This document shows, piece by piece, positions 38,556 to 56,174 of a stretch of DNA of 64,000 bases (its first letter is position 1; every line of letters begins with the position of its first letter). Source of the stretch: Pseudomonas sp. WN033 (lineage in GTDB: Bacteria > Pseudomonadota > Gammaproteobacteria > Pseudomonadales > Pseudomonadaceae); assembly GCA_002287035.1 (NCBI GenBank), contig NSKG01000002.1, positions 372,001 through 436,000 of the forward strand, given 5' to 3'. Both the position numbers and the translations under genes were made by a program. A model generated the notes under the pieces. That model did not search any database. It saw only the letters and a program-made list of their open reading frames with translations, and was not told where the DNA came from.

Positions 38556-40506
38556 ACACTTCAAACCCGCGCTGCCTGTCTTGCTGCTGGCCGCGCTGAC
38601 CCTGGGACTGGCCAGCACCAGCCTTAATCCACTGGGTGGTGGCAGCGCGGCCTGGCAGGCGCTGTTCAGCGAGCAGTCGCTGCTTTTACATTTCAGCTGG
38701 TGGCCACGGCTGTGCATGGCATTGCTGGCCGGGGCAGGTCTGGCCATGGCCGGAGTACTGATGCAGCAGTTGTTGCGCAATCCGCTGGCTTCGCCGACAA
38801 CCCTCGGGGTCTCCAATGGCGCCAATCTGGCCCTGCTCTGCGTCAGTCTGAGCGCCCCCTGGCTGCTCGACTGGGGCCGCGAATGGGTGGCACTGACCGG
38901 CGGCGCGCTGGCCATGGGGCTGGTCATGCTGATCAGTTGGCGGCGCGCCCTGGCTCCGCTGGTGGTGGCACTCGCCGGGCTGGTGGTCAACCTCTACCTG
39001 GGTGCTCTGGCGATTGCCGTGTTGCTGTTCAATCAGGAAGCCTTGGGCGGCTTGTTGATCTGGGGTGCCGGATCGCTGGCCCAGAATGGCTGGGACGGGG
39101 TGGCCTTCCTGGCCCCGCGGCTGCTGCTCGGCATGCTGCTGGCGGGTTTGTTGCTGCGCCCGCTGGCACTGCTGGACCTGGACGACATCAGCGCCGGCAG
39201 TCTTGGCATCTCACTCAAGTATCTGCGCCTGGCCGGCCTGGGGTTGGCGGTTTTTCTGGCCGGCTGCGTGGTCAGCGCGGTGGGCGTGATCGGCTTTATC
39301 GGCCTGGCGGCACCAAACATCGTGCGCCTGGCCGGGGCCCGCCGGCTCGGCCCACGGCTGCTGTGGTCCACCTTGCTCGGCGCCCTGCTGCTGGCAGCCA
39401 CCGACCTGATGCTACAGGCGCTGGGCAACCGGGCGGCCATGCTGATACCCACGGGCGCGGTCACTGCCGCACTGGGAGCACCGCTGCTGTTGTGGCTGAT
39501 TCCACGCCTGCGGCTAGGCCAGCGCCAGGCTCCGGTCACGCCCGGGGTACTGGCCAGACGCACTACTCAGCCGGGGCGCCGGCTGCTACTGCTGGCTCTG
39601 GCGCTGCTGCTGGCCTGCGTCCCAGCCCTGTGGTTCGGTCAAGGCCCAACTGGCTGGTTCTGGCTTGATAGCAGCCAACTGGCGGTGCTCGACTGGCGTC
39701 TGCCGCGGGTCACCGCCGCGCTCGCCTGCGGCCTGCTGCTGGCGCTGGCCGGCACCCTGGTTCAGCGTCTGAGCGGTAATCCCATGGCCAGCCCGGAGCT
39801 GCTCGGCATCAGTGGCGGCAGCGCCATCGGCCTGATGGCCGCAGTCTTTCTGCTGCCAACCCCGAATAATCTGAGCCTGATGCTCAGCGGCACCTTCGGC
39901 GCACTGCTGGTACTGGTCCTGCTGATCACTCTCAACCGCCGCAGCGGCTGGCTACCCGAGCGTCTGTTGTTGACGGGTGTAGCGATTACCGCGCTGTTTG
40001 ACGCCCTGCGCGCTGTAGTACTGGCCGGTGGCGATCCGCGCGGCCAGCAGTTGCTGGCCTGGATGTCCGGCTCAACCTACTACGTTGACGCTACCGCAGC
40101 CTGGACTCTGCTTGGCACCGGTATGCTGCTGGCACTGGTGTGCGTGCCGCTGGTACGTTGGCTGGACATTCTGCCACTGGGCGCCGACACCAGTCGGGCG
40201 CTGGGTATCCGGGTGCAGCAGGCGCGCCTGTTGCTGTTGCTGCTGACTGCGGTACTGACCGCCGCCGCCACCCTGATCATCGGCCCCTTGAGTTTCGTTG
40301 GCCTGCTGGCACCGCACATGGCACGCCTGCTTGGCTTCAGCCGGGCCGGCCAGCATCTGGCTGGTGCGGCGCTGGTTGGCATGTTGCTGATGGTCCTGGC
40401 CGATTGGCTGGGCCGTCAATTGCTGTTCCCCAATGAACTGCCCGCCGGCCTGATGGCTGCGCTGATTGGCGGTGCCTATTTCATGTGGGGACTGCGGCGA
40501 CTCTGA
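38548..40506 (+). CDS. fhuB: Ferric-hydroxamate permease FhuB (two fused halves)
   Basis: 652 residues, close to E. coli FhuB (660). Two homologous BtuC/FecCD-type halves each have about ten spans: the first has LLRNPLASPTTLGVSNGANLAL and GFIGLAAPNIVRLAGARR, the second QRLSGNPMASPELLGISGGSAIG and SFVGLLAPHMARLLGFSR. GTG start at 38548 inside fhuD. The 3' end overlaps the P-type ATPase gene on the other strand by 26 bases. Confidence 0.93.
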   Translation: MTEHFKPALPVLLLAALTLGLASTSLNPLGGGSAAWQALFSEQSLLLHFSWWPRLCMALLAGAGLAMAGVLMQQLLRNPLASPTTLGVSNGANLALLCVSLSAPWLLDWGREWVALTGGALAMGLVMLISWRRALAPLVVALAGLVVNLYLGALAIAVLLFNQEALGGLLIWGAGSLAQNGWDGVAFLAPRLLLGMLLAGLLLRPLALLDLDDISAGSLGISLKYLRLAGLGLAVFLAGCVVSAVGVIGFIGLAAPNIVRLAGARRLGPRLLWSTLLGALLLAATDLMLQALGNRAAMLIPTGAVTAALGAPLLLWLIPRLRLGQRQAPVTPGVLARRTTQPGRRLLLLALALLLACVPALWFGQGPTGWFWLDSSQLAVLDWRLPRVTAALACGLLLALAGTLVQRLSGNPMASPELLGISGGSAIGLMAAVFLLPTPNNLSLMLSGTFGALLVLVLLITLNRRSGWLPERLLLTGVAITALFDALRAVVLAGGDPRGQQLLAWMSGSTYYVDATAAWTLLGTGMLLALVCVPLVRWLDILPLGADTSRALGIRVQQARLLLLLLTAVLTAAATLIIGPLSFVGLLAPHMARLLGFSRAGQHLAGAALVGMLLMVLADWLGRQLLFPNELPAGLMAALIGGAYFMWGLRRL

Positions 40507-42481
40507 GTTCGTCAGTCCGGGGCACGTCTGCCGTGCCCCAGCGCAGTAACCGCAGCCCATTGAACACCACCAGCAGGCTGACGCCCATGTCAGCGAAGAC
40601 CGCCATCCACAAGGTGGTATGCCCGGTCAGGGTCAACAGCAAAAACAGTGCCTTGATGCCAACCGCCAGTGCAATATTCTGCCGCAGGATACGCACCGTC
40701 GCCCGCGACAGCTGGATGAAGGTGGGAATTTTGCCCAGGTCATCATCCATCAGCGCCACATCGGCGGTTTCCATCGCGGTATCGGTACCGGCCACAACCA
40801 TGGCGAAACCGATATCGGCCTGGGCCAGTGCCGGCGCATCATTGATTCCATCGCCGACCATACCGACCTTGCGCCCTTCTGCCTGCCAACGCTCGACCAG
40901 ATCCAGCTTGTGCTCGGGCAGCAGCTCGGCATAGGCCTGATCGATACCCGCCTGCGCGGCGATGGTTTGGGCCGCGTGCGGGTTATCGCCGCTGAGCATA
41001 TGCGTCTGCACCCCGGCCTGAGTCAACCGGCTGACAGCCTCACGACTGCCCGACTTGAGCTGATCAGCTACAGCGAACAGGGCCAACGGTTGCTGCGTGT
41101 CAGCCAGCACCACGACACTCTTGCCCTGGCGCTCCAGGGCTTGCAGGAGCTGTTCAAGTGACGCATTGAGCAACCCTCGTTCATCCAGCAGCCGTCGATT
41201 GCCCAGCCAGTAATCCTGACCAGCAATCCGCCCGCGCACACCACTACCAAGCAGGGCGGTAAAGCCCTCCACGGCTTGCAACCCGGCGAGCTGCCCCATG
41301 GCCGCACGACTAATTGCGCCGGATACCGGGTGATCGGAACGTCCAGCCAGACTTGCGGCCAACGCAAATAGCGGCTCGGCGTCCCGCCCATTGAGCGCTT
41401 CGACATCCGTCAGCTCTGGCTGCCCCAGCGTCAGAGTGCCGGTCTTGTCCAGAGCCAGGCAGTCCAGCTCGCGCCCGGCTTCGAGAAAGCGCCCGCCCTT
41501 GATCAGAATCCCCAGGCGCGCCGCCCGGGTCAGACCGCTGACCACGGTGACCGGTGTCGAGATCACCAAGGCACAGGGACAGGCCACCACCAGCAATACC
41601 AATGCCCGGTAGATCCATTCCAGCCAATCACCGACGAACAGTGCCGGGACCACCGCCACCAGCAGCGCCAGAGCAAACACCGCCGGGGTATAGATACGCG
41701 CGAAACGGTCGATGAAACGCTGGGTCGGAGCCTGACTGGCCTGGGCTTGCTCCACCGCCCGAATGATCCGCGCCAGCGTGCTGTCACTGGCCGGGGCCGT
41801 GACCCGATACTCCAGCTCCCCCTGCTGGTTCAGGCTGCCGGCAAACAGAGCGTCGCCCGGACGCTTGTCGACCGGCAGACTTTCCCCGGTAATCGGTGCC
41901 TGATTGATGCTCGAATGACCACTGAGCACCTCCCCGTCCAGCGCGATACGCTCACCAGGGCGCACCCGCACCCGGTCCCCCACCGCAACCTCGGCCACCG
42001 GCAGATCGCGCCACTGGCCATCGCTCTGCAACACCCAGGCCTGCTCCGGGCTCAGATCCAGCAACGAGCCGATAGCCCGCCGAGCCCGCTCCAGCGAACG
42101 CGCCTCGATCAGTTCGGCAATGGTGAACAGAAACATCACCATCGCCGCCTCCGGCCACTCGCCAATCAGCATGGCCCCGGTCACCGCCACGCTCATCAAG
42201 GCGTTGATGTTGAGTTCACGGCGGCGAATCGCCAGCCAGCCGGCCTTGTAGGTCCCTAGCCCGCACAGCAGGATCGACAGCAGCGCCAGCGCCGCTACCC
42301 GCCAGTCGCCGGCCAGCCCGGCCAGGTGCAACACTTCAGCCGCCAGTGCCACCAGCCCGGCCGCCGCCAGACGCCAGCGTCCCCAGCGCGAGGAAGATTC
42401 GGCGTCCGAGCAGCCATCGGCGCCACAGCAGCTTTGGATCTCAGGCTTCGGTGCCTGAGGTTGATTATCGCAACAGGACAT
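40481..42481 (-). CDS. cadA: Heavy-metal P1B-type ATPase (Cd/Zn/Pb exporter)
   Basis: 666 residues. Transmembrane CPC motif in VVACPCALVISTP, phosphorylation site DKTGTLTLGQP, TGES loop PITGESLPVD, and hinge MVGDGINDAPALAQADIGFAM. The N-terminus has no full HMA fold; instead it begins MSCCDNQ...SCCGADGC, a cysteine-rich tail that may bind metal. CPC without a Cu-type HMA plus the CadR-like regulator point to Cd2+/Zn2+/Pb2+ export. Start at 42481 with GGAG; the frame to 42520 is not needed. Confidence 0.92.
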   Translation of the reverse strand: MSCCDNQPQAPKPEIQSCCGADGCSDAESSSRWGRWRLAAAGLVALAAEVLHLAGLAGDWRVAALALLSILLCGLGTYKAGWLAIRRRELNINALMSVAVTGAMLIGEWPEAAMVMFLFTIAELIEARSLERARRAIGSLLDLSPEQAWVLQSDGQWRDLPVAEVAVGDRVRVRPGERIALDGEVLSGHSSINQAPITGESLPVDKRPGDALFAGSLNQQGELEYRVTAPASDSTLARIIRAVEQAQASQAPTQRFIDRFARIYTPAVFALALLVAVVPALFVGDWLEWIYRALVLLVVACPCALVISTPVTVVSGLTRAARLGILIKGGRFLEAGRELDCLALDKTGTLTLGQPELTDVEALNGRDAEPLFALAASLAGRSDHPVSGAISRAAMGQLAGLQAVEGFTALLGSGVRGRIAGQDYWLGNRRLLDERGLLNASLEQLLQALERQGKSVVVLADTQQPLALFAVADQLKSGSREAVSRLTQAGVQTHMLSGDNPHAAQTIAAQAGIDQAYAELLPEHKLDLVERWQAEGRKVGMVGDGINDAPALAQADIGFAMVVAGTDTAMETADVALMDDDLGKIPTFIQLSRATVRILRQNIALAVGIKALFLLLTLTGHTTLWMAVFADMGVSLLVVFNGLRLLRWGTADVPRTDELRVAAVPT

Positions 42482-42511
42482 ATTCCAGACTCTCCGTGGT
42501 TGTCTGGCTCT

Positions 42512-42542
42512 ATTGCACACCCTATAGTTACTACAGGGTCAA
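42512..42542 (-). promoter_or_regulatory. MerR-type operator/promoter of the metal ATPase gene
   Basis: Minus-strand TTGACC (42537-42542) and TGCAAT (42512-42517) are 19 bases apart, the stretched spacing of MerR-family promoters. Within lies the near-perfect inverted repeat ACCCTGTAGTAACTATAGGGT, matching ZntR/CadR operators. The divergent regulator should twist this DNA to activate the ATPase when metal is bound. Confidence 0.88.
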
Positions 42543-42562
42543 GCAATTCAGGACACGACGAG

Positions 42563-42997
42563 ATGAGAATCGGCGAACTGGCCAGGCATACCGGCTGCCC
42601 GGTGGAGACCATCCGCTACTATGAGCGCGAAGGATTGCTGCCGGCACCGGCACGCAGCGCCAGCAACTACCGGCTTTACGGGCAGGCACATATCGAGCGA
42701 TTGGGCTTTATTCGCCACTGCCGTGTGCTGGACATGAGCCATGAAGAAATTCGTCAGTTGCTGGCCTTGCGCGACAACCCGCAATCACCCTGCGATAGCG
42801 TCAACGACCTCATCGATGCCCATATCAGCCATGTCGAAACCCAGATGGCCAGCCTGCAGGCCCTGCATCAGCAACTGGTCGAACTGCGCCACCGCTGCTC
42901 TGGGCACAATGACACCGAGCACTGTGGCATTCTCAATGAACTGGAGAAGCTTGATTCTGTGTCAGGCGGCCCAACCCGGCTGCATCCGCTAAGCTGA
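42563..42997 (+). CDS. cadR: CadR-like MerR-family regulator
   Basis: 144 residues. N-terminal winged helix MRIGELARHTGCPVETIRYY (1-20) and the MerR pattern ASNYRLYGQAHIERLGFIRHC. Metal-binding cysteines C77, C112 and C121 are placed as in CadR/PbrR, though the last pair is spaced a little wider than in P. putida CadR and the His-rich tail is missing. Controls the divergent P-type ATPase through the operator at 42512-42542. Confidence 0.88.
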   Translation: MRIGELARHTGCPVETIRYYEREGLLPAPARSASNYRLYGQAHIERLGFIRHCRVLDMSHEEIRQLLALRDNPQSPCDSVNDLIDAHISHVETQMASLQALHQQLVELRHRCSGHNDTEHCGILNELEKLDSVSGGPTRLHPLS

Positions 42998-43020
42998 TAA
43001 GCGCACAGCCCAATCCACCA

Positions 43021-43096
43021 GGGAACCTCTGAAAAACGTAAGCGAGGCCGTTTTTAACGCAGTATTGCCAACACAGCTAGTTTTTCAGAGGTTCCC
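43021..43096. mobile_element. 76-bp MITE-like element with perfect 17-bp inverted ends
   Basis: Terminal repeats GGGAACCTCTGAAAAAC (43021-43037) and its exact complement (43080-43096) enclose 42 bases that include AGCGAGGCCGTTTTTAACGCAG. The ends look like those of IS elements that use GGGAACCTCTGAAAAA termini, so it is probably a nonautonomous remnant. No transposase is present; target duplication was not clear. It sits 13 bases before the next start codon. Confidence 0.8.
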
Positions 43097-43109
43097 CAGG
43101 AGTCCTGCC

Positions 43110-43457
43110 ATGTTTACACCAGGTCACCTGCATCTAAGCCGTATGCAGCTCTTGCCCAGCGACGTCGGTTTCAGCATCGACATCAATTACGAGATCGACG
43201 AGCAACGCACTGCCGTGCATTTCACACTGGAAGGTGAAATCAAGGGCGAGCCACTCAAGGAAAGCTTTTCTTTACCGCGCGATACCGCCTTCAACTTCGC
43301 CAGCAATATCGACCACATCCTGCGCCATCACGGCGTGACCAGCCCGGAATTCCTCTCGGTATCCGCTCACCACGAGTACGATGAGATGTTCGAAGACATC
43401 CGCGCCAAACTGCACGCCTGGCATGGCGAGGCGATTGATCCGGATCATTTGGTGTAG
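43110..43457 (+). CDS. DUF5064-like small protein
   Basis: 115 residues, soluble, beginning MFTPGHLHLSRMQLLP and containing EEIKG-type beta segments and THHEYDEMFEDIRAKL near the end (SVSAHHEYDEMF). It resembles the Pseudomonas DUF5064 family; function unknown. AGGAG at 43098-43102, just outside the MITE, supports ATG 43110. The promoter region has been replaced or altered by the MITE. Confidence 0.7.
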   Translation: MFTPGHLHLSRMQLLPSDVGFSIDINYEIDEQRTAVHFTLEGEIKGEPLKESFSLPRDTAFNFASNIDHILRHHGVTSPEFLSVSAHHEYDEMFEDIRAKLHAWHGEAIDPDHLV

Positions 43458-43559
43458 GGTCTGTTGCCGTTTCATCGCAAACCGCGTTGCTGTGCACCCC
43501 GAAGGGCCGGGCCTGTTTTTGCGCGATGCAGCGTTGCTCAATGCTTATTTGGCACTACC

Positions 43560-46500
43560 TCAAAGCCAGGCCTCACACAACGTCTCGGCCTGCGCCAATA
43601 CTAGTTGCGCGGCCTCCTCGGCCTGATCCGGCGGATACTTGTACTTGCGCAAAATGCGTTTGACCATCAACCGCAATCTGGCACGCACACTGTCACGGTT
43701 GTTCCAGTCCACGGTTACGTTCTGCCTCAGACTGTCGGTCAGTTCATGGGCGATCTTGGCGAGGATCTCGTCTCCCAGGTCACGCACCGACGCCTCGTTA
43801 TTGGCCAGCGCATCATAGAAGGCCAGCTCGTCGTCATTCAGCCCCAGTTGCTCGCCACGCTGGCTGGCCGCGGCGAACTTTTTCGCCATCTCGATCAGCT
43901 CTTCGATGACCTGGGCGGTTTCGATTGAGCGGTTCTGGTAGCGCTTGATCACATTGCCCAGCAACTCGGAGAATTTCTTTTCCTGGGCCAGATTGCTGGA
44001 AAACTTGCTCTTGATCTCGCCTTCCAGCAACCGCTCCAGCAGCTCAACGGCGAGGTTTTTCTCCGGCAGGTTGCGTACCTCGGCGAGAAACTCGTCATCC
44101 AGCAGGCCGATATTCGGCTTGTCCAGACCAACCGCCTCGAACACATCCACCACTTCGCCGGAGACCACTGCATTGCCGATGATCTGGCGGATCGCCAGTT
44201 CGCGCTCCTCGTCGGTTTTCTTTTTCGCGCTGATATCGCGCTTGGTCAGCAGCACCTTGATCGCCTGCAAAAAGGCCACTTCCTCGCGCACCGCCCTGGC
44301 CTCGTCCAGCGTACAGCACAGGGTAAAGGCCTTGCTCATGGCCAGCGCGGCATCGGCAAAGCGCTTCTTGCCGTCCTCCAGCCCCAGCACATGGTTGGCC
44401 GCCCCGGCCAGCAGCTTGTGCCCGCCGGTCAGGTAATCGCTGTAATCAAAGCCATGCAGCAGGCCGCGCAGCACGTCGAGCTTTTCCTCCAGCAGCGCAT
44501 AGGCCTCATGGGCGTCCACCGTCGGCCGTCCGCGCCCCTTGCTGGCGGTGTATTCCTTGAGCGCCGCCTTCAGCTCGTTGGCAATGCCGATGTAATCCAC
44601 CACCAGCCCGCCCTGCTTGTCCTTGAACACCCGGTTCACCCGGGCGATGGCCTGCATCAGGTTGTGGCCCTTCATCGGCTTGTCGACATACAGGGTATGC
44701 ACGCAGGGCGCATCAAAGCCGGTCAGCCACATATCGCGCACTATCACCAGCTGCAGCGGATCGGCCGGGTCCTTGAAGCGCTTTTCCAGACGTTTTTTCA
44801 CCTGGCCGGGATAGATATGCGGGCGCAGCAGCGCCTTGTCCGAGGCACTGCCGGTCATAACGATCTTGACCGCGCCCTTTTCCGGATCATCGTCGTGCCA
44901 CTCCGGGCGCAGGGCGACAATCGCGTTGTACAGATGCACACAGATTTCCCGACTCATCGCCACCACCATGGCCTTGCCGGTCTGCGCCTGATTGCGCTCC
45001 TCGAAGTGCGCCACCAGGTCCGCCGCCACGCTGTGGATACGTGGCTCGGCGCCCACCACCTTTTCCAGCGCCGCCCAGCGCGACTTCAGCCGCGACTGCT
45101 GGTCTTCCTCCTCGTCCTCGGCCAGCTCGTCCACCTCTTCGTCGAGCTGTTCCAGCTCGGCCTCCTTGAGCGACAGTTTGGCCAGCCGCGACTCGTAGTA
45201 GATGGCCACAGTCGCGCCATCTTCCTTGGCCTGCTGCATGTCGTAGACGTGGATGTAGTCACCGAACACCGCCCGCGTATCGCGGTCCTCGCTGGACACC
45301 GGCGTGCCGGTAAAGGCGACAAAGGTGGCATTCGGCAGCGCGTCACGCAGGTGCTGGGCATAGCCGACCTGATAGCGGGCACCGGCCTCGGCGGCCTGCA
45401 GACCCGGCGCCTTCAATGAGGCACTGAAACCATACTGGGTGCGGTGCGCCTCATCGGCGACCACCACGATATTGGAGCGGGTGGACAGCACCGGAAAGCT
45501 GTCCTCGTCCTCGCCCGGCATGAATTTCTGGATGGTCGCAAAGACAATACCGCCACTCGGGCGATTGGCCAGCTTCTCGCGCAAATCACCCCGTGTCGTC
45601 ACCTGCACCGGCTGCTCACGCAGCAAATCCTGCGACAGCGAAAACACCCCGAACAACTGGCCATCCAGATCGTTGCGGTCGGTAATCACCACAATGGTCG
45701 GGTTCTCCATCACCGCCTCCTGCATCACCCGTGCGGCGAAGCAGGTCATGGTGATGCTCTTGCCGGAGCCCTGGGTATGCCAGACCACCCCGCCCTTCTG
45801 CGTACCGCCCGGCCGCGATGCCTGCACCACCTGCTGAATCGCCGCGCGTACCGCATGGAACTGGTGATAGCCGGCAATCTTCTTGACCAGCCGGCCATCG
45901 TCCTCGAACAACACAAAGTAGCGCAGGTAATCCAGTAACATGGCCGGCTGCAACACACCGCGCACCAGGGTTTCCAGCTCGTTGAACTCGCCCAGCGGGT
46001 CAACCGTCACCCCGTCGATGGTCCGCCAGCGGGAAAACCGCTCGATATCCGCCGACAGCGAGCCCATGCGCGCCTCGCTGCCATCACTGATCACCAGTAT
46101 TTCGTTGTACTGGAACAGGTCAGGGATCTGCTCCTTGTAGGTCTGGATCTGGTCAAAGGCCTTGATCAGGTCGGCATTCACATCCGCCGGATTCTTCAGC
46201 TCCAGCAGTACCAGTGGCAGGCCATTGACGAACAGGATGATGTCCGGCCGGCGCGTATGCTTTGGCCCCTGAATGCTGAACTGGTTGACCGCCAGCCAGT
46301 CGTTGGCGCGCACATCGGCCCAGTCGATCAGCCGCACAAAATCGCCACGGGTTTCGCCATCCTTCTGGTACTGCACCGGCACCCCGCCCACCAGCATGCG
46401 ATGGAACAGCCGGTTAGCCGACAACTGGATCGGCAGGCCCAGCTCCAGCACCTGACGCAGGGCATCCTCGCGGGCTGCCGGCGGCACCTGCGGGTTGAGG

Positions 46501-46661
46501 CTGGCGATAGCCGTGCGCAAACGCTGGGTCAGCAGCACATCGCGATAGCTGGCCCGCTCCGGGCTGTCGCCATCGTGGGCGATATCCGGGCCGTAGAGGT
46601 GGGTGTAACCCAACTCACCCAGCCAGCCGAGGGTTTCCTGTTCCAGTTGGTCTTCGGTCAT
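43560..46661 (-). CDS. hsdR: Type I restriction endonuclease subunit HsdR
   Basis: 1033 residues. The N-terminal nuclease domain (about 60-200) shows [32 protein letters not shown], with the PD-(D/E)xK pattern (PD...ELK). Translocase motifs follow: [11 protein letters not shown] (Walker A), [26 protein letters not shown] (DEAH-type), and [14 protein letters not shown]. The C-terminal part joins HsdM. It cuts unmethylated DNA as part of the HsdR2M2S1 complex. Follows the Fic gene by 30 bases with a weak ribosome site. Confidence 0.95.
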
Positions 46662-46691
46662 TGGAGTGCCCTGTCTGCCCCTTCCTCAGTG

Positions 46692-47675
46692 TTAAACGCG
46701 CCGGTACTTCTGCACCGGGCTGCGCGGTGATGCCGGGTCGGTCATTTCAATCAAGCCTGCCGCCAGCGCGGGCTTCAGATAGTTTTTGCTGAAGCTCGGA
46801 CGGTGTGACAAGCCCAGGCGCTGCATCAGCTCATTGGACCTGAGTGCAACACCCGGCGGCAACACCTGCAACAGCTGCTTTACTTGATCGCTTACTTGAT
46901 CGGTTACTTGATCGCTTTGCACGGCTTCCAGCAGTGCCTGATGCAAGGCCTGCAGCATAAAGTCGACAAAGGGTGCAGCGTCCGATGCCCGGTCGGCCGC
47001 CGCCAGCGCCGCGTAGTAATCATCCTGACGATCCCGAATCACGCTCTCCACTGGCAGCCAGGCCAGCACCGGTCGCCAGCGGCTGAGGATCAGCGTCTGC
47101 CACAAGCGGCCCATGCGGCCGTTGCCATCGGCAAACGGGTGGATAAACTCGAACTCATAGTGGAACACGCAACTGGCGATCAGCGGATGCCAGTCGGTTT
47201 GCGCCAGCCACTGCAGCAGATCCTGGGTCAGCGTCGCCACCCGGCTGGCCGGTGGTGCCATGTGCAGCAGTTGATCTGCACGGTAGATGCCCACCCCGCC
47301 CTGGCGGAACTGGCCGGCGCTGTCGATCAGCCCGTGCATCAACAGCCCATGTGCCGCCAGCAAATCGGCTTGCGAAGACGGCTGCCAACCGGGCATGGCT
47401 TCATAGGCAGCAAAGGCATTGCGTACCTCCTGAATCTCGCGGGGCAAGCCAAGCACGCGCTTGCCATCCAGCACGGCAGTGACCTGATCGACGCTCAGGG
47501 TGTTGTTCTCGATGGCCAGCGAAGCCTGAATGCTGCGAATGCGATTGCCCCGCCGCAACTGCGGGGTCAGTACCGCATCATGCAGCGCCGACAGCCAACC
47601 AACCTGCTCGCTGATGCTGGCAACCTGATCCAGCATCGAGGGCGTCAGGTTCAAGGGCGGCTGGTAGTGACTCAT
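46692..47675 (-). CDS. Class II Fic-domain AMP-transferase-like protein within the hsd operon
   Basis: 327 residues. Fic motif HPFADGNGRMGR at 179-190 with catalytic His179; the inhibitory helix motif SLAIEN at 52-57 lies N-terminal, defining class II. The N-terminal segment is the Fic_N helical domain. The C-terminal part (about 250-327) contains tandem DQVTDQVSDQVKQL, then a winged-helix region (LRSNELMQRLGLSHRPSFSKNYLKPAL). Fic enzymes transfer AMP to proteins. Its start overlaps the hsdS stop by ATGA and hsdR follows, so it is translated with the restriction system. Target unknown. Confidence 0.9.
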   Translation of the reverse strand: MSHYQPPLNLTPSMLDQVASISEQVGWLSALHDAVLTPQLRRGNRIRSIQASLAIENNTLSVDQVTAVLDGKRVLGLPREIQEVRNAFAAYEAMPGWQPSSQADLLAAHGLLMHGLIDSAGQFRQGGVGIYRADQLLHMAPPASRVATLTQDLLQWLAQTDWHPLIASCVFHYEFEFIHPFADGNGRMGRLWQTLILSRWRPVLAWLPVESVIRDRQDDYYAALAAADRASDAAPFVDFMLQALHQALLEAVQSDQVTDQVSDQVKQLLQVLPPGVALRSNELMQRLGLSHRPSFSKNYLKPALAAGLIEMTDPASPRSPVQKYRRV

Positions 47676-48937
47676 GCCAGCGCGTCCTGCAGTTGTTTCT
47701 GGGCTTCGGGCAGGCGCAGCTGGCCGGAGATCAGACGGGGTAACAGGGTGTCGCGGAGTTGGGTAAGGGTTTGGGCTTGCTGCTCTTGTGACCGACTCCG
47801 TTCGTAGAGCTTTCCGACGATCGCCTCAAACTTGCCAAGCACTTCTCGCGAGGGAATCAAACCTTGCTGGGCGCCCAAGTCTCGTTGCGTTAAGAGTGGC
47901 TGGGTTGAGCCACGATTTAGTGCCTGCACATCAATCGATCTAATCCAATTCAACGCAAATGAAAAATCTGCAGGCAACTTCGGAGACACAACGAGAACGT
48001 TGTCCGATGCCCAAAATGGTGGATATGCAATATGAACCTTACCTAAGGTGCCAACCCTACCAGTTACGATCTGCATCTCATCAAAAAGAGAAGCTGAGGT
48101 GTAACCCATCAACCCTGCTCCACCATAGAGTGGAATAGAGTACACCTCGGTCAAATGATCGCTTCTATCCGGCGGGCGCTTCCCACTAGCAATGATGCAT
48201 ACATCGGAGAGAAATCCGACCCTCCACCCCTTCGGCACCAACCCCAGTTCGGATTCTTCGAAGCTATCGGGGAACAGGGCGGCGGTGGCGGCGTCCATAC
48301 CTTCCGGCTGGCGGCCTTCGGCCTTGGCGCGCATGGGGTCGAAATCGACGAACCAGGATTTGAACAGCGCCTGGGCGATGGCTTCCAGGGTGACGTTGGT
48401 TTCGCGTAGCAGGGTGATGCGGTCGTCGAGAAGGGACAGTAATGTTACTGCATCACGCATATCCCTCTGATTGGCCGGGTAAGAGACAGGAAAATTACGA
48501 ATTTCAGCTAACGAAATATATTGCTGCGTTGAGCCCTTTTTACGTTGCTCAATCAGTTGCTGCCCCTGAGAAGATCTAAGGAAGTAGTAGAGCCACTTGG
48601 CTCGAAGCTCTGAGCCACACTTTAAAAGCCCCACATTCTTGATAGCAAACATGGGGTTTGGCTGACTGACAATACAAACTTCGCCAACGGTACCGATCAT
48701 AGTCAGAAGAAGGTCCCATTGATCAACTTTGCTACGACGATTGATCTCGGCGAAATCCTCATCTGAAATCAAATAGGCAGAATCAAGAAGTAGGCGACCA
48801 CCTTTAACATTCTTGGACGTTACAAGAAGTTTGCCATCAGTTGTCTGTTTCGGGCTGTCATGGGTACCGTCCGCAACTCTCAAGCAATACTCATCGCATG
48901 CGACTGTTTCGAAGCCAGGATCAATCTCAAAACTCAT
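47672..48937 (-). CDS. hsdS: Type I restriction-modification specificity subunit HsdS
   Basis: 421 residues with two target-recognition domains separated by conserved helices. TRD1 covers about 15-165 ([43 protein letters not shown]); the central repeat is [39 protein letters not shown]2 covers about 225-385 ([40 protein letters not shown]); the second helix ends the protein. TRD2 and part of TRD1 have visibly lower GC than the flanks, a sign of exchange. Sets the DNA site recognised. Confidence 0.94.
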
Positions 48938-50852
48938 ACCCCAGCCCCCCCAGCTTCTGCCGGATCAACTGATCGAGTTCCGCGCCCTTGTGCATCTGCT
49001 CGCCCAGTTGCCGGGTCAGCCGCTGCATCTTTTCGGCAAAAGCTTCGTCGTCGTCTTCCACGGCTTCGGCACCGACATAACGGCCCGGCGTCAGCACATG
49101 GCCGTGCTCGGCGATTTCTGCGAGGCTGACGCTGCGGCAGAAGCCGGCGATGTCCTGGTAGTCGGCAATCTCACCGTCCACATCCAGCGGCTCGCCGCGC
49201 CAGTTGGCCACCGTTTGCGCGATGCGCTCGATATCGGCGTCGGTCAGTTCGATCTGCACGCGGCTGACGCTGGTGCCCAGCTTGCGCGCGTCGATAAACA
49301 GCACTTCGCCGGGGCGGGCGGTTTTCTGTTTGGCGAGGAACCACAGGCAGGCGGGAATCTGCGTGTTGAAGAACAGCTGGCCGGGCAGCGCGATCATCAC
49401 TTCCACCACATCGGCCTCGACCATCGCCCGGCGAATCTCGCCTTCGCTGTTCTGGCTGGAACTCATCGAGCCGTTGGCCAGCACGATGCCGGCGCGGCCA
49501 TTGGGTTTCAGGTGGTAGAGCATATGCTGCAGCCAGGCGTAGTTGGCGTTGCCCTGCGGCGGGGTGCCATAGTCCCAGCGCGGGTCGCCTTCCAGGCTGC
49601 CGTGCCACCAGTCGCTGATATTGAACGGCGGGTTGGCGAGGATAAAGTCGGCACGCAGATCGCTGTGCTGGTTGCGGATAAAGGTGTCCGCCGGTTCCTT
49701 GCCCAGATTAAAGTCGATGCCGCGAATCGCCAGGTTCATCGCCGCCAGTCGCCAGGTGGTGGGGTTGGATTCCTGCCCGTAAATCGACACATCGCCCAGC
49801 TTGCCGCCGTGGGCTTCGATGAATTTCTCCGACTGCACAAACATCCCGCCACTGCCGCAACAGGGGTCATAGACCTTGCCGTGGTGCGGGTTGAGCACCG
49901 CCACCAGGGTTTTGACGATGCTCGCCGGCGTATAGAACTGTCCGCCCTTCTTGCCCTCGGCACTGGCGAACTGGCCGAGGAAGTATTCGTAGACCTGCCC
50001 CAGCAGGTCGCGGGCCTTGCTGGTGTCGTCACCAAAGCCGATGGTCGAAACCAGATCCACCAGCTCGCCGAGCTTGCCATCCGGCAACTGGGCGCGGGCG
50101 TAGCGCTTGTCGAGGATGTTTTTCAGCTTGGGGTTTTCCGCCTCGATGGCGGCCAGCGCCTCGTCGATGCGCTTGCCGATATCCACCTGCTTGGCGCTCG
50201 CACGGATCGCCTCCCAGCGCGCCACCTCGGGCACCCAGAACACGTTCACTTCGCGGTAGTAGTCGCGGTCTTCCAGTTCGGCGGCGAGCAGCTCGCCATC
50301 ATTTTCAAGAGCATCATCGCCCAGGTAGTAGTCGTCGTTCTCATCCAGCAGCTTGCGCTGCAGCTCGGCCCGCCGGCCGGCGAAGCTGTCGGAGATGTAT
50401 TTGAGGAAGATCAGCCCGAGCACGATGTGCTTGTACTCAGCAGCGTCCATATTGGCGCGCAGCTTGTCGGCGGTGGCCCACAGGGTTTTCTTCAGGTCTT
50501 CGATACCGGTGGCCGGCTGCGCCGGCTTGCCCTTCACCGCACGGGCAGCCTGGGCCAGATAGCCGGCTGACACTTCGTTGATCTGTGCAGTTGGTGCAGC
50601 AGACTTGGTTTGCACCGGAGCACTTTGTCCGCTGCCAACCCCTTGGGCACGCAGCACCGAACCACCGCGCCCACGCCCCTTAACCAGTACGCCCTGATCA
50701 ATAAGCGCATCACGCGCGGTCCACAGCTGCTCATCTGATGCGCCTGGAAAACGGGTCTTCAATCGCTCGAACAGGGTCTGATTACCAATGCTGCTGCCAT
50801 CGGCAGGTACCTCGGCCAACACAGCAATACCCAGTTCAGCCAAATCACTCAT
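48927..50852 (-). CDS. hsdM: Type I DNA methyltransferase HsdM with N-terminal winged-helix extension
   Basis: 641 residues. The first ~75 residues form an extra predicted winged helix ([40 protein letters not shown]) joined by an Ala/Gln-rich linker. Then the HsdM N domain ([37 protein letters not shown]) and the N6-adenine methylase domain: SAM motif [12 protein letters not shown] and catalytic [16 protein letters not shown] precedes ATG 50852. It is the first gene of the operon and methylates the site set by HsdS. Confidence 0.94.
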
Positions 50853-51085
50853 TCACAACTCCTCAGGTGCGCTGCATGGCATCAGCACACAACTACTTGT
50901 ACAGGTTCGCCATAGCATACATGGAGGAAGGCTTGCAGAAGGTACTGCCGGGTTGCACATACCATTGAAGAGCCATCCCTGGGATGCCGCGGACTGCCAT
51001 GACGTGATGCCGATCACATTAGCCACAGAGGCCACGGGAGTAAAGCAGTGTGGGGTGGATAACTGTTGGCAATGGCTGAAGAAAC

Positions 51086-51126: not shown

Positions 51127-51203
51127 TGGCGCAGCGGACGGGACTCGAACCCGCGACCCCCGGCGTGACAGGCCGGTATTCTAACCGACTGAACTACCGC
51201 TGC
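51127..51203 (-). tRNA. tRNA-Asp (GTC)
   Basis: A 77-base cloverleaf on the minus strand: acceptor stem GCAGCGG/CCGCTGC, D arm with AGTTCAGTCGGTTAGA, anticodon loop CCTGTCACG giving GTC, T arm GGTTCGAGTCC, and a genome-encoded CCA (51127-51129). The acceptor differs from the common GGAGCGG type but pairs fully. The hsd operon lies on its 3' side. Confidence 0.97.
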
Positions 51204-51293: not shown

Positions 51294-54200
51294 TCAAGCA
51301 CTTGCATAAGATTTATTGTCCTGCGCCTGCGCTTTGGGTTTGAGGCTCAGGCGGCAGACCGCCGGGATCACCAGCAGGGTCAGTACGGTCGAGGCCAGCA
51401 AGCCGGAAATGATCGCCCAGGCCATCGGTGGCCACAGGGTCGATGATGAAAAGGCCAGTGGCAACAGACCGGCGATGGTGGTCGCCGTGGTCAGCAGAAT
51501 CGGCCGGGTACGCCGCTGTACCGCTTCGCTGACCGCCTCCCCTACCGCCTTACCCACGGCCAGGCGCTGATCGACCAGATCAAGCAAGACGATGGCGTTG
51601 TTGACCACGATACCGACCAGGGCAATCACCCCGAGCATCGACTGGAAGCCGAACGGCGAGCCGGACAATACCAGACCGGGGAAAATGCCGACGCTGGCTA
51701 GCGGCACGGTCAGAAGAATGATCCCGACCCGGCGGAACGAGTTGAACTGCAGCAGCAGGAAAAACAGCAACAGCAGCATGCCGACTGGTGCGCTGGTGGC
51801 CAGCGCCCGGTTGGCATCACCGGAGCCCTCGCTGTCACCGCCCAGTTCCAGCCGGGTCCCAGGCGGCAAGGGCTGGACCTGCAACTGCCGATCCAGCGCA
51901 TCAAGCACCTGATTGAAGCTGTAGCCGTCTTCCAGCCCGGCCGTGACGCTGTAGACCCGTACCCCGTTGCGTTGGCGGATACTGGCCGGCAACCAGCGCG
52001 CCTCGATCCGCGCCAGCGCGGTCAGAGGAATCGCCTCGCCGGCCTGGTTGAATACATGCAGTGACAGCAGGCGTTCCAGCGACTGCCGGGTCCCCTCATG
52101 CGAGCGCAGCAGCATCGGGATCGGATCAAGCTCCTGGCGATACTGCTCGACAGTCAGCCCCAGACTCTGGGAGAACAGCGCCCGGGCTACCTCGGCGCGG
52201 CTTACCCCCAGACGCTGGGCCTGGGCATCATCGACCTCGATGGCCAGCACCGGCACGCCCAGATCTACGTCATGGCGTACATCCACCGCGCCCTCGACGG
52301 CTTTGAGCGCAGTGAACACCTGCTCGGCGGCGGCAATCCGCTGACGATCATCGGGGTGGTACAGCCGTACCTCGACCGGCGCCACCCGTGGCGGTCCCTG
52401 CCCCAGCCGTTCTGCTACCACATCCAGCTCCGGCCGTTGCCGGGCGACATGCTCACGCACCCAGTGAATCACTTCGCCGGTGGCAGCCAGATCAGTAGTC
52501 TGAACGACCAGACGGCCACGGTTGGGCGACTCCGGTGAGCGCAGCAGGTTGTAATAGAAGCTGGGCCCGGCCGAGCCGACAAAGCGATGGACCGCCTGTA
52601 CCTGGGGCAAGCCACGCAACTCGCGCTCCAGATCGGCGGCAACATCGGCGGTGCGCTGCTGATCGGTGCCTTCTGGCATATGCAGTTCAACCACCACCAC
52701 AGGCCGGTCGGCATAGGGGAAAAACTGCTGCTTCATCCAGGGCGTCATACCCAGGCTGATGATCACCATTACCAGCCCGAACAACACCACCAGCCTGGGA
52801 AAGCGGCCACTGATACGCGCCAGACCGGCGCCCAGACGCTCCATCAAGGGACTGTCGAGCGAGGCCGCCGGCTTGAGAAAACGCCCTGCGATCAGCGGGG
52901 CGACACTGATAGCCAGCAGGTAGCTGACACTCAGGGTCAGCATGATCATCACCGGAATCCCCCGGGTGAAGTCCGCCGTGCCGCCCTTGGCAAGCAGCAA
53001 GGGCGTAAACGCCGCCAGCGTAGTCGCGGTCGACGCACCCAGCGGACCGGCCAGTTCGCGTACCGCCTCATGCATGGCATGGGCCCGTGAGGCGCCGCGG
53101 TTGAGCCGGTCCTGAATGTTCTCGACCATGACGATGGCGTTATCGATCAGAATCCCTAGCGAGATCACCATGCCGATCACCGCAATCTGGTGCAGGACAC
53201 CGCCGCCGAAGTTGTACAGCCCAAGACTGATCATCGCCACCAGCGGCAGCATGGTCGCCACCAGCACGCCCATCCGCCAGCCCATGCCAACCAGCACCAC
53301 GGCGACAATGATCAGCACACTCAGCAGCAGGCTCAGCTCCAGGCTATCCAGACGCTCCTTGACCTGATCCGGTTGAAAGAACATCTCGTCAATCTGCAGC
53401 GGCTGAAACTCGTCACGCAGCAGATCCAGACGCTCGCGCAACTGCTCACCGAAACGAATCGCATCGACCTGGCCACGCTGCGCAGTCAGACTGACCAGAA
53501 CCGCCTGCTCGCCATCGAACCAGGCCTGGGGCTGAGCCGGCTCCAGCGGGCCACGCCAGACATCGGCAATCGCCGCCAACGGCACGCTGCCGCCTTCGGG
53601 CAGCGGAATCTGGGTGCCACTTAGTGCCTCAAGACTGGTGAACTCGCTGTTGGGCAAGACCCCCAAACGCTTGTCATCGACCACCACAAAGCCGCCAGGG
53701 ATTACCTGATTGCGCTGAGCCAATAGCGTGCTCAGTTGTTGCGGCGTCAGACCCAGGCGGCGCATCTCGGCATCGCGCAGGGCGATGGTGATCTGCTCGT
53801 CAGCCTCACCTTCCAGTTCAACCCGCGACACTCCCGGCAGGTCCATCAGGGCTCGTTTGAGCCGCTCGGCCTGCTGACTGAGATGCACCAGGGAAGCGTC
53901 ACCACGCACCGCCAGCACCACTGCCGGGATATCGATCAGCCGGTCATCCAGGTTCATGCGCGCAATCCCGTCGGGAAACTCCAGCCGGGCCCGCTCCATG
54001 GCCTGGCGCACCCGGTCCCAGGCAGAATCGGTGTCGTAAATTCTATCTTCAAGGTTGATGCTGATCAGCACCACGCCGGTCCGCGCGGTGGCGGTGAAAT
54101 AATCGATCTCCTCTACCTGTGACAGCTCATCAGACAGTGGCTCCAGCACCATTCGCTCGACCGCCTCGGCCATGGCCCCAGGATAAATCACCGTAATCAT

Positions 54201-54329
54201 GCCGGCACGCTGGGGAAAGCTCGGATCTTCCTGGCGCGCCATGGTCAGATAGGAAGCCAACCCCAGCAGGCACAACATGGTGACCACCAGCCCAATCAGC
54301 CGGGCCCGGGTATTGAGCAACAGAGTCAT
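51294..54329 (-). CDS. RND efflux transporter (inner-membrane pump)
   Basis: 1011 residues, AcrB/HAE1-like family with 12 spans and two large periplasmic loops. Family motifs: RQEDPSFPQRAGMITVIYPGA near the N-terminus, GILIDNAIVMVENIQDR in TM4 (a single Asp where AcrB has two), and VVNNAIVLLDLVDQRL in TM10-11. Pairs with the fusion protein encoded upstream (ATGA overlap). No outer-membrane factor gene lies here, so it probably uses one encoded elsewhere. Substrates unknown. Confidence 0.92.
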   Translation of the reverse strand: MTLLLNTRARLIGLVVTMLCLLGLASYLTMARQEDPSFPQRAGMITVIYPGAMAEAVERMVLEPLSDELSQVEEIDYFTATARTGVVLISINLEDRIYDTDSAWDRVRQAMERARLEFPDGIARMNLDDRLIDIPAVVLAVRGDASLVHLSQQAERLKRALMDLPGVSRVELEGEADEQITIALRDAEMRRLGLTPQQLSTLLAQRNQVIPGGFVVVDDKRLGVLPNSEFTSLEALSGTQIPLPEGGSVPLAAIADVWRGPLEPAQPQAWFDGEQAVLVSLTAQRGQVDAIRFGEQLRERLDLLRDEFQPLQIDEMFFQPDQVKERLDSLELSLLLSVLIIVAVVLVGMGWRMGVLVATMLPLVAMISLGLYNFGGGVLHQIAVIGMVISLGILIDNAIVMVENIQDRLNRGASRAHAMHEAVRELAGPLGASTATTLAAFTPLLLAKGGTADFTRGIPVMIMLTLSVSYLLAISVAPLIAGRFLKPAASLDSPLMERLGAGLARISGRFPRLVVLFGLVMVIISLGMTPWMKQQFFPYADRPVVVVELHMPEGTDQQRTADVAADLERELRGLPQVQAVHRFVGSAGPSFYYNLLRSPESPNRGRLVVQTTDLAATGEVIHWVREHVARQRPELDVVAERLGQGPPRVAPVEVRLYHPDDRQRIAAAEQVFTALKAVEGAVDVRHDVDLGVPVLAIEVDDAQAQRLGVSRAEVARALFSQSLGLTVEQYRQELDPIPMLLRSHEGTRQSLERLLSLHVFNQAGEAIPLTALARIEARWLPASIRQRNGVRVYSVTAGLEDGYSFNQVLDALDRQLQVQPLPPGTRLELGGDSEGSGDANRALATSAPVGMLLLLFFLLLQFNSFRRVGIILLTVPLASVGIFPGLVLSGSPFGFQSMLGVIALVGIVVNNAIVLLDLVDQRLAVGKAVGEAVSEAVQRRTRPILLTTATTIAGLLPLAFSSSTLWPPMAWAIISGLLASTVLTLLVIPAVCRLSLKPKAQAQDNKSYASA

Positions 54330-55429
54330 GGTAGCAGCTCCACCCGGTCCTGATCGGCCAGCCGGGTCAGACCGGCATAGACCACCTGCTCACCCGGTTG
54401 CAGGCTTCCCGCATCCAGTAACGCTCGTTCACCCTGCATACCGCGTACTTCAACCGCCACCCGACTCACCCGCTCACCCTCGACACGGAATACCGACAGA
54501 CCTTCGGCCGAGCGCATGATCGCCGCCAGCGGCACGCTGAGCTGGCCCGGCTGCTGACGTGCCAGTCCTACTTCCACTGCATCACCGGCCTGCAGGCCGG
54601 GCTCATCCAGGCTCAATACCAGCGGATACAGCACACTGCCCTGCGAGGCACTTTGACCGATTTCACTGACCCGGCCCTGCCATTGCCCCTCTCGTACGCT
54701 GGCCCACACCGGCAGGCTTTGGCCCAGCTCGACGCCATTGAGCAAGGCCGCCGGAACCCGTACTTCTACCTCATGGCCTGCCGACGCCGACAAGCGCAAT
54801 ACCGGTTGCCCTGGTGCGACGTACTCACCCGGCTCGACCAGCAAAGCCTCAATGCTGGCGTCGAACGGGGCCAGCAAACGCATTTCTCCCTGCAACTGCT
54901 CGCTCTGACGCAGTGCTGCCCGGGCGCTATTGACCGAGGCCAGCAACGCATCGCGACGAGCTGCCTGCTGTTCGCGCTCCTGGGCCGACATCACACCGCG
55001 CTGATACAGCTGTTCGGCCCGGTCGACATCGCGCCGGGCCTGCTCAGCCTGGGCCTGCAGCTCCTGCAACCTGGCCTTGGCCGCATCACGGGCCGGCTCC
55101 AGTTCAGGGTTGTACAACCGCGCTAGTAACTGGCCGGCCTTGACCTGCTGGCCAATCTCCAGTGGCCGCTCACGCAGCACACCACCTACCTGAAAGGTCA
55201 GTACGGCTCGCTGACGCGGTCTGACCAATCCGGCAAAACGCAATGGCTCCTCAGCTTGCGCCAGGCTGACCTCTGCCGCACGCACCGCAACTGCCGGCAC
55301 CTGCGGCAGCGCTGCCGCATCAGCCTGCTGCTCTCGGCCGCAACCACTGGCAGTGGCTAGCAACGGCAGCAACAACGCCACCAGCAACGGTGGCAACCAG
55401 GATTTCGGGGCATCAGCAAGGCGGGACAT
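54326..55429 (-). CDS. RND periplasmic adaptor (membrane fusion) lipoprotein
   Basis: 367 residues. Lipobox LATASGC gives an acylated N-terminus. Then lipoyl/beta-barrel segments (LRFAGLVRPRQRAVLTFQVGG, LLARLYNPELEPARDAAKARLQEL) with a coiled hairpin (about 105-170), and MRLLAPFDASIEALLVEPGEYVAPG returning through the lipoyl half. ATG 55429 has GGAG. It links the RND pump to an outer-membrane channel. Operator-like palindrome upstream at 55460-55492. Confidence 0.92.
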   Translation of the reverse strand: MSRLADAPKSWLPPLLVALLLPLLATASGCGREQQADAAALPQVPAVAVRAAEVSLAQAEEPLRFAGLVRPRQRAVLTFQVGGVLRERPLEIGQQVKAGQLLARLYNPELEPARDAAKARLQELQAQAEQARRDVDRAEQLYQRGVMSAQEREQQAARRDALLASVNSARAALRQSEQLQGEMRLLAPFDASIEALLVEPGEYVAPGQPVLRLSASAGHEVEVRVPAALLNGVELGQSLPVWASVREGQWQGRVSEIGQSASQGSVLYPLVLSLDEPGLQAGDAVEVGLARQQPGQLSVPLAAIMRSAEGLSVFRVEGERVSRVAVEVRGMQGERALLDAGSLQPGEQVVYAGLTRLADQDRVELLP

Positions 55430-55459
55430 GACAGACTCCTGAATAGGGCAGGATTGTTT

Positions 55460-55492
55460 TTGACAGTTTGTCACTGTTTGACAAATTGTCAA
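55460..55492. promoter_or_regulatory. TetR-type operator palindrome
   Basis: TTGACAGTTTGTCA (55460-55473) and TGACAAATTGTCAA (55479-55492) are near-perfect mirror images, each itself containing a TTGACA...TGTCA dyad. It lies between the divergent RND operon and tetR, 31 bases upstream of the fusion-protein start and 46 bases before tetR, so the TetR protein probably represses both. Confidence 0.75.
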
Positions 55493-55538
55493 TAACGTCA
55501 CAGACTCCATTCGTCAGCCATCAGTTAGTGAGTAGTCT

Positions 55539-56174
55539 ATGAGCGTTGAGCAACGCCGGGAACGGGAAAAGCAGGAGCGCCGAGACAGTATTCTCGACGC
55601 CGCCGAGCAGGTTTTCTTCAGCAAGGGCTATGAGCGCTGCTCTATGGATGACATCGCCCGGGCCGCCCAGGTCAGTCGCGCCCTGCTGTACGTCTACTTC
55701 AAAGATAAGGCCGCAATCATGCGCGGCATCATGCTACGCGCCGGCGAATCGATCCGCAGTCATTTCCGCCAGGCCATGGAGGCCTCAAGCAGCGGAGCCG
55801 AGCAGATTGAAAATATCGGCCGAGCTTACTATCACTTCAGCGTTGAGCATCCCAACTATTTCGATGTACTGACCCAAGCCCAGGGATTCGCCCACCCAGA
55901 CGAGCCTGACGAACAGAGCCTGGCTCTGCAGCAATGCAGCAGCGACGCCATGCACCTGATGATTCAGGCGCTGCTCCAGGGCGTAGCCGACGGCAGCCTG
56001 AGCGCCGAGCGGGTCAGCGATCCACTGCAAACCGCCTACTATCTGCGCGGCGCCTTACATGGAGTGATCATGCAATGTCGGCACATCAGTGAAATCGAAT
56101 TACCTGACCACCCCAACCCGGAGCAACTGGTCAGCTATACCCTGCGCATGCTGACCCAGTCGATGCGGCCCTGA
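55539..56174 (+). CDS. TetR-family regulator of the RND pump
   Basis: 211 residues. N-terminal helix-turn-helix RRDSILDAAEQVFFSKGYERCSMDDIARAAQVSRALLYVYFKDK (about 14-57), followed by an all-helical ligand domain. Divergent from the RND operon across the palindrome at 55460-55492, so it is probably the local repressor, relieved by a pump substrate. Ribosome site is weak (GTTAGTGAG region). Confidence 0.9.
   Translation: MSVEQRREREKQERRDSILDAAEQVFFSKGYERCSMDDIARAAQVSRALLYVYFKDKAAIMRGIMLRAGESIRSHFRQAMEASSSGAEQIENIGRAYYHFSVEHPNYFDVLTQAQGFAHPDEPDEQSLALQQCSSDAMHLMIQALLQGVADGSLSAERVSDPLQTAYYLRGALHGVIMQCRHISEIELPDHPNPEQLVSYTLRMLTQSMRP

Follow-up and report, generated by a model that had tools for sequence, protein, structure and literature searches.

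A class II Fic gene between hsdS and hsdR of a Pseudomonas type I restriction-modification operon resembles exchangeable defense cargo

In a 64,000-nucleotide stretch of the Pseudomonas sp. WN033 genome (contig NSKG01000002.1, positions 372,001 to 436,000; hereafter the window), a type I restriction-modification (R-M) operon carries a gene for a Fic protein between the genes for its specificity subunit (hsdS) and its restriction subunit (hsdR). Our analysis favors, with a probability of roughly 0.58, the reading that fic is portable defense cargo, an autonomous and self-inhibited abortive-infection toxin that occupies the hsdS-hsdR slot known for PrrC, DarTG2 and TgvAB. Many different anti-phage genes occupy the same gap in related operons, so the Fic protein appears to be an exchangeable second layer of defense rather than a permanent component of the restriction enzyme.

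The four genes are on the minus strand in the order hsdM-hsdS-fic-hsdR. The modification subunit gene hsdM (48927..50852; 641 amino acids, aa) matches PF12161 and PF02384, and TIGR00497 below its cut-off; hsdS (47672..48937; 421 aa) contains two PF01420 stretches; fic (46692..47675) encodes a class II Fic protein of 327 aa; and hsdR (43560..46661; 1033 aa), for the restriction and motor subunit, scores above the TIGR00348 cut-off and contains PF04313, PF18766, PF22679 and PF11867 by domain search. All three hsd genes are open frames with the domains expected of a type I system, and fic lies inside the operon on the same strand. This order, the 11-nucleotide (nt) overlap of hsdM and hsdS (48927-48937), the 4-nt overlap of hsdS and fic (47672-47675) and the 30-nt spacing from fic to hsdR (46662-46691) had been described in an earlier note on this DNA, and all were confirmed. 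Judging from these overlaps, fic appears to be translationally embedded; co-transcription with the rest of the operon and coupling to the translation of hsdS are probable. No minus-strand promoter match was found inside the operon, in a scan that was weak overall (2 promoter matches versus 2.1 in shuffled sequences).

The catalytic motif HPFADGNGRMGR, of the form HPFxxGNGRxxR, is at Fic residues 179-190 (47106..47141, minus strand) with H179 as the catalytic histidine, and the N-terminal class II inhibitory motif (S/T)xxxE(G/N) is present as SLAIEN at residues 52-57 (47505..47522, minus strand), which bears out the earlier note on both motifs. PF02661 matched residues 101-197 and PF21247 (Fic-like_C) residues 263-325 (46701..46889, minus strand). 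The C-terminal winged helix proposed in that note corresponds to this PF21247 domain, which is probably a winged helix, judging from its place in the protein. A 12-bp tandem repeat of 3.2 copies (46880..46917, minus strand) codes for SDQV-TDQV-SDQV between the Fido core and this domain. Similar DQV-coding units recur in the C-terminal tail of McrC, just before hsdR, in the Fic-less slots L083, L086 and L090; they are possibly a recombination seam and possibly a chance likeness. The C-terminal domain varies between Fics with close Fido cores. The closest solved structure was 4rgl, the Dde_2494 Fic of Desulfovibrio, which matched over residues 2-325, was 65% identical in the fold alignment and contains the same two domain stretches; its entry title is without a function. 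An AlphaFold model built from 8 sequences was poor (mean pLDDT 64, pTM 0.63, weak in the PF21247 part), and a fold search with this model also ranked 4rgl first. PF02661 is matched twice in the 4.16-Mb genome of the window, once by the operon fic.

Abortive infection is the reported means by which SoFic, a Fic protein of class II, defends cells against phage; its self-inhibition is described as incomplete, and a small protein, AS1, is reported to neutralize it (excerpts of PMC12249575). The window Fic is like SoFic in having a class II inhibitory motif ahead of the Fido core and a separate C-terminal domain. Unlike SoFic, it scored 58.8 bits against the NCBIfam model NF046030, under the cut-off of 550 bits, and had no match to the SoFic domains PF13784 (N-terminal) and PF21248 (C-terminal), both of which were found in the Fic of the related locus L079; the PADLOC SoFic model gave 142 bits, with no cut-off shown. 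An AS1-like small antitoxin was set aside, since no small neighboring open reading frame (ORF) was common to the Fic loci beyond closely related ones.

We compared the operon with 80 loci, the best 80 of 441 HsdR relatives in genome contigs and all Pseudomonadota judging by record titles; hsdS was in view upstream of hsdR in 73 of them, and the hsdM-hsdS junction was assessed in 64. The hsdS-hsdR gap exceeded 200 nt in 60 of the 73 operons and was 150 nt or less in 13, whereas the hsdM-hsdS gap exceeded 200 nt in only 3 of 64, with an 11-nt overlap in 56. Nearly all open slots (56 of 60) contained a same-strand ORF of at least 100 aa or a Fic hit, while L082, L087, L128 and L143 had no same-strand ORF of 100 aa. 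The earlier note had called for a survey of genomes for fic between hsdS and hsdR, and this survey was positive: a Fic, defined here as a profile hit, was found in the slot of 18 of the 73 operons, and also in L096, in which hsdS was not in view. Fic made up 15 of 127 non-hsd ORFs of at least 100 aa inside the slots and 0 of 846 elsewhere in the same stretches, a count that is without three slot Fics missed by the ORF picker (L135, L139 and L150, included in the 18); this excess is greater than expected by chance in Fisher tests that ignore relatedness. Most relatives' slots are therefore without fic, which is one part of the refuting result named in the note (loss of fic in most relatives with no effect on restriction), and for this reason Fic as a fixed fourth Hsd subunit was set aside.

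Slot ORFs were called mechanically and grouped as BLAST clusters, which were named from one or a few representatives via Pfam and PADLOC. Over the 80 loci, these clusters comprised McrC (12), YhcG-type PDDEXK proteins (7), DUF3800 proteins (7), Schlafen/AlbA (6), ZorC (4, with MotB/OmpA-type and SNF2 neighbors among the representatives), small Doc proteins (4, counted apart from Fic; PF02661 in the one scanned), SIR2 (2) and MTES_1575 (2), and single cases of PtuAB (L145), KwaB (L137) and a PDC-S06 AAA_13 protein that matches PrrC weakly (L133). A nameless 312-aa protein, with no Pfam or PADLOC match, occupied the slot in 8 of the 80 loci (e.g. L104, 8017-8955) and is a candidate unnamed defense gene. 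A two-gene module of this protein and Fic was considered and rejected, as there was no match at E 0.01 to the upstream neighbors of fic in L041, L044 and L206.

Cargo also differed between close operons. When HsdR was 95-97% identical, the cargo set differed in 23 of 33 operon pairs and was the same in 10; at 97% identity or more, it was the same in 5 of 7 pairs. A short leader before hsdR, GCCAGGTAAGGC, is common to L081 (McrBC and Fic), L082 (no large ORF) and L083 (McrBC), and a longer pre-hsdR leader is common to L079 (SoFic-type Fic) and to L088 and L094 (window-type Fic). In L079, from Halopseudomonas yangmingensis, HsdR is 96% identical to that of the window and Fic only 28% identical: the match to the window runs through hsdM and parts of hsdS, ends at 47690 near the end of hsdS, and restarts at 46662, one base before the start of hsdR. 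In a tree of 79 Fics, 17 restriction-linked Fics formed a clade separate from the window's 62; the SoFic-type identity of this second clade is read from its one scanned member, the L079 Fic. Azotobacter plasmid operons (L051/L071 and L072) contain two different Fics, one between hsdM and hsdS and the other between hsdS and hsdR.

Window-type Fics were found away from the slot, too. A survey of the family gave a Fic match in 41 of 298 genomes, the window's own included, and 40 of 41 places other than the window's own were read, a C-terminal fragment in G042 being left out. Seven places had the slot arrangement with hsdS upstream and hsdR downstream (L031, L051, L053, L054, L058, L062 and L068, the last with fic split into two frames), and four had Fic near type I genes in another order (L038, L040, L043 and L065). 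The L062 operon (G074 contig 22), from the same genus, is decayed, with a window-type fic cut to 204 aa and then a 172-aa hsdR remnant. The class survey gave matches in 15 of 369 genomes, own included; in 7 of the 14 others, fic adjoined type I genes in various arrangements (L204, L208 and L210-L214). In L216 (6047-13603), a window-clade Fic lies between DNA methylase and ResIII helicase genes and overlaps both by their longest frames. Eight of 24 matching plasmid records were read; five had the slot arrangement, one of them the same plasmid sequence as L051 judging by length and gene content, and three did not. A piece of 1501 bases from Vibrio cholerae spanning hsdS-fic-hsdR found no place covering 80% of it in E. 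coli genomes, and the ten matches listed, of 1359 records, were to hsdS and hsdR only.

The neighbors of lone fic genes included rsmI in one case and a histidine kinase and CreD in another (L063). Eight Pseudomonas-family relatives (L046-L048, L055-L057, L059 and L039) have a lone fic with similar-sized neighbors, of 588-617 aa upstream and, on the opposite strand, of 650-683 aa downstream; in L046, these were named by eye as an ABC transporter and a lytic transglycosylase. In the Fic tree, 37 of the 62 window-clade members were labeled solo, and there were 19 changes between the restriction-linked and solo states, at least 11 of which are forced by well supported branches. The linked label denotes a same-strand type I profile hit within 6 kb and takes in L034 (a weak hit, type IV by PADLOC) and L038, L040 and L043 (hsdM-hsdS downstream), while the solo label takes in L216 (type III-like), L037 (adjoining a helicase) and some short stretches, L207 (3,674 bases) among them. 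Selection of the 80 loci by HsdR accounts for many of the 42 linked rows. Six ORFs of less than 200 aa, two extra L096 ORFs and the duplicate loci L031, L071, L053, L054 and L058 were left out of the tree.

The catalytic histidine was kept in 42 of 42 restriction-linked and 37 of 37 solo Fics. All 42 linked copies have the inhibitory glutamate, as do the 35 solo copies whose sequence covers this position, which indicates that Fic retains a restraint of its own. Ratios of nonsynonymous to synonymous divergence (dN/dS) for fic were 0.09-0.26 in all 36 pairs of nine loci, above those of hsdR in every pair, and 0.11 between the window and L081. The ratio of the synonymous distances of fic and hsdR was not constant (1.04 versus 0.70 for window-L081, 0.20 versus 0.41 for L088-L094), as expected if the two genes have had partly separate histories.

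Embedded cargo between hsdS and hsdR is of a known kind. In the prrABCD operon, prrA, prrB and prrD correspond to hsdM, hsdS and hsdR, and prrC is placed as fic is here (excerpt of PMC4857294); PrrC is reported to be held silent in the type I complex and released when phage T4 blocks that complex (excerpts of PMC3874165 and PMC2610378). DarTG2 is described between hsdS and hsdR in enteropathogenic E. coli (EPEC), at a site called a potential recombination hotspot by its authors (excerpt of PMC12255303), and TgvAB, between hsdS and hsdR in V. cholerae, is described as a working modification-dependent restriction system in an account that also names RloF of Campylobacter as an embedded case (excerpt of PMC11411939). 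DarTG2, on the EPEC RRDM island, and TgvAB, on VPI-2 of V. cholerae, are thus defense genes embedded as fic is, although they are of other chemistries and comprise two genes each. A 2025 review, as excerpted, describes accessory genes, presumed to encode toxins, that are coupled to R-M systems (PMC12707154). Fic itself appears between hsdS and hsdM of Histophilus somni in a figure legend (PMC3339403), and two Vibrio integrative and conjugative elements list a type I system and Fic among their genes, the position not being stated in the excerpt (PMC4857294). Our literature searches found no study of a Fic between hsdS and hsdR. The findings go beyond the literature found in that one junction is filled with interchangeable modules and has been entered by two Fic families.

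In the mechanism that we propose for portable cargo, the inhibitory helix at the N-terminus of the class II AMP-transferase (S52..E56-N57) would keep the enzyme inactive. This inhibition would be lifted upon infection or when control is lost, the signal perhaps being read through the C-terminal domain, and the released Fic would arrest growth by AMPylating an essential protein of the cell. This arrest would serve as a second line after DNA cleavage. The second defense layer suggested in the earlier note thus stands as a plausible role, because the same slot carries many known defense modules.

Several observations weigh against this reading. The restraint of SoFic is reportedly incomplete, and by analogy an outside restraint may be needed for the window Fic, which is itself far under the NCBIfam SoFic cut-off. 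The activity, toxicity and phage effect of this Fic clade are predictions, and the motif is damaged (HPFADGKERMGR) in one copy from the slot, L116. The Fic and HsdR distances are correlated (Mantel r 0.53, p 0.002, nine loci; the hsdR-hsdM correlation was 0.69, eight loci), which points to some co-inheritance of fic and hsdR. Finally, Fic adjoins hsdR in 13 of 13 multi-gene Fic slots of the 80-locus set, several of which are mutually related, and random order predicts otherwise; in L072, L076 and L077, another gene separates Fic from hsdR. Such a preference is consistent with a functional link between Fic and HsdR.

The main rival is a guard of the PrrC kind, in which the Hsd complex would silence Fic, and Fic would be released to stop the cell when HsdR is lost or when phage anti-restriction proteins act. 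The position of fic matches that of prrC in the type IC system EcoprrI: a candidate toxin gene separates hsdS from hsdR in an R-M system that appears complete. The consistent adjacency to hsdR and the L216 arrangement, with Fic between methylase and helicase genes, point the same way. Because SoFic self-inhibition is incomplete and no small partner gene is conserved beyond closely related loci, there is also room for Hsd proteins as the restraint. PrrC, however, is an anticodon nuclease reported to be invariably linked to type Ic systems (in the excerpts cited), whereas the window protein is a Fic, without a PrrC match in Pfam and PADLOC-type profile searches, and 37 of its 62 clade members are solo, several beside ordinary genes. 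Furthermore, the inhibitory glutamate is kept in every linked copy, and a different Fic stands beside nearly the same HsdR in L079. We therefore set aside an obligate dependence on the R-M complex, given the lone copies and the conserved inhibitory motif, and consider a guard of this kind unlikely.

A broader form of this idea is that the Fics are recurrent partners of ATP-driven restriction motors: Fic would monitor the condition of the motor, or how it is assembled, and become active once phage disables it. The guard logic would be that of PrrC, the output would be AMPylation, and sensing would fall to the changeable C-terminal domain. It was suggested by the finding that two distant Fic families adjoin hsdR and that the window clade also stands beside ResIII (L216) and SNF2-type helicases. 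In four close relatives (L037, L038, L040 and L043), a window-clade Fic lies 30-34 nt before a large helicase; the L037 helicase, with which the remaining three share 90% identity, contains SNF2 and helicase domains and has a PLD-like match below cut-off. Taken as a whole, this combination seems doubtful to us.

It is improbable that fic is passenger DNA without benefit in a slot that merely tolerates insertions. Many unrelated cargos and the decayed L062 operon would fit such a slot, but the low dN/dS of fic in all 36 pairs argues for selection on the protein, and the insertions are concentrated in one junction, where many of the named ones are defense genes. Less probable still is the earlier note's idea that Fic AMPylates HsdR or HsdM and tunes restriction. 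The co-operonic position, with its short overlap and spacing, and the partial co-variation of Fic with HsdR are consistent with it. As a main role, though, control of HsdR was not supported, because Fic is missing from most relatives' slots (13 of the 73 slots are 150 nt or less), is replaced by an unrelated Fic beside a 96% identical HsdR in L079, and is often found away from type I genes in close lone copies. Equally remote is a transcription regulator of the operon with secondary Fic activity, for which the PF21247 domain and the different, helix-turn-helix-like C-terminal part of four aligned slot Fics (by eye) might speak, since the catalytic motif is kept in all but one of the 42 linked copies and the C-terminal domain changes within the clade.

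The operon as a whole is an insertion between a tRNA-Asp(gtc) gene (51127..51203, minus strand), which adjoins its upstream border and is accompanied by a terminator-like hairpin, and a DUF5064 gene. This conclusion was drawn from the empty-site relative G098 (L218), which lacks the stretch 43452..51081 with hsdMS-fic-hsdR: homology to the window ends at 51082 and restarts at 43451, the flanking RND gene is 99% and the DUF5064 gene 95% identical, and 249 bp separate the matched ends. The related operon of H. yangmingensis likewise follows a tRNA-Asp gene. A chromosomal site common to the window and this locus is not supported, as only the tRNA stretch matches and window positions 51300-55600 and 40001-43559 are unmatched there. 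For hsdR, BLAST gave an identical result with L079 and with the same-genus genome G074, so the window probably comes from a Halopseudomonas.

Altogether, operons with near-identical HsdR that carry the window Fic, an unrelated Fic, McrBC, Zorya or nothing amount to a natural cargo-exchange experiment, and the hsdS-hsdR junction is a place to look for unnamed defense genes. If the embedded Fic protects cells, protein AMPylation would be a further second-line effector activity housed within type I systems, and whether such cargo acts independently or guards the restriction enzyme would become testable.

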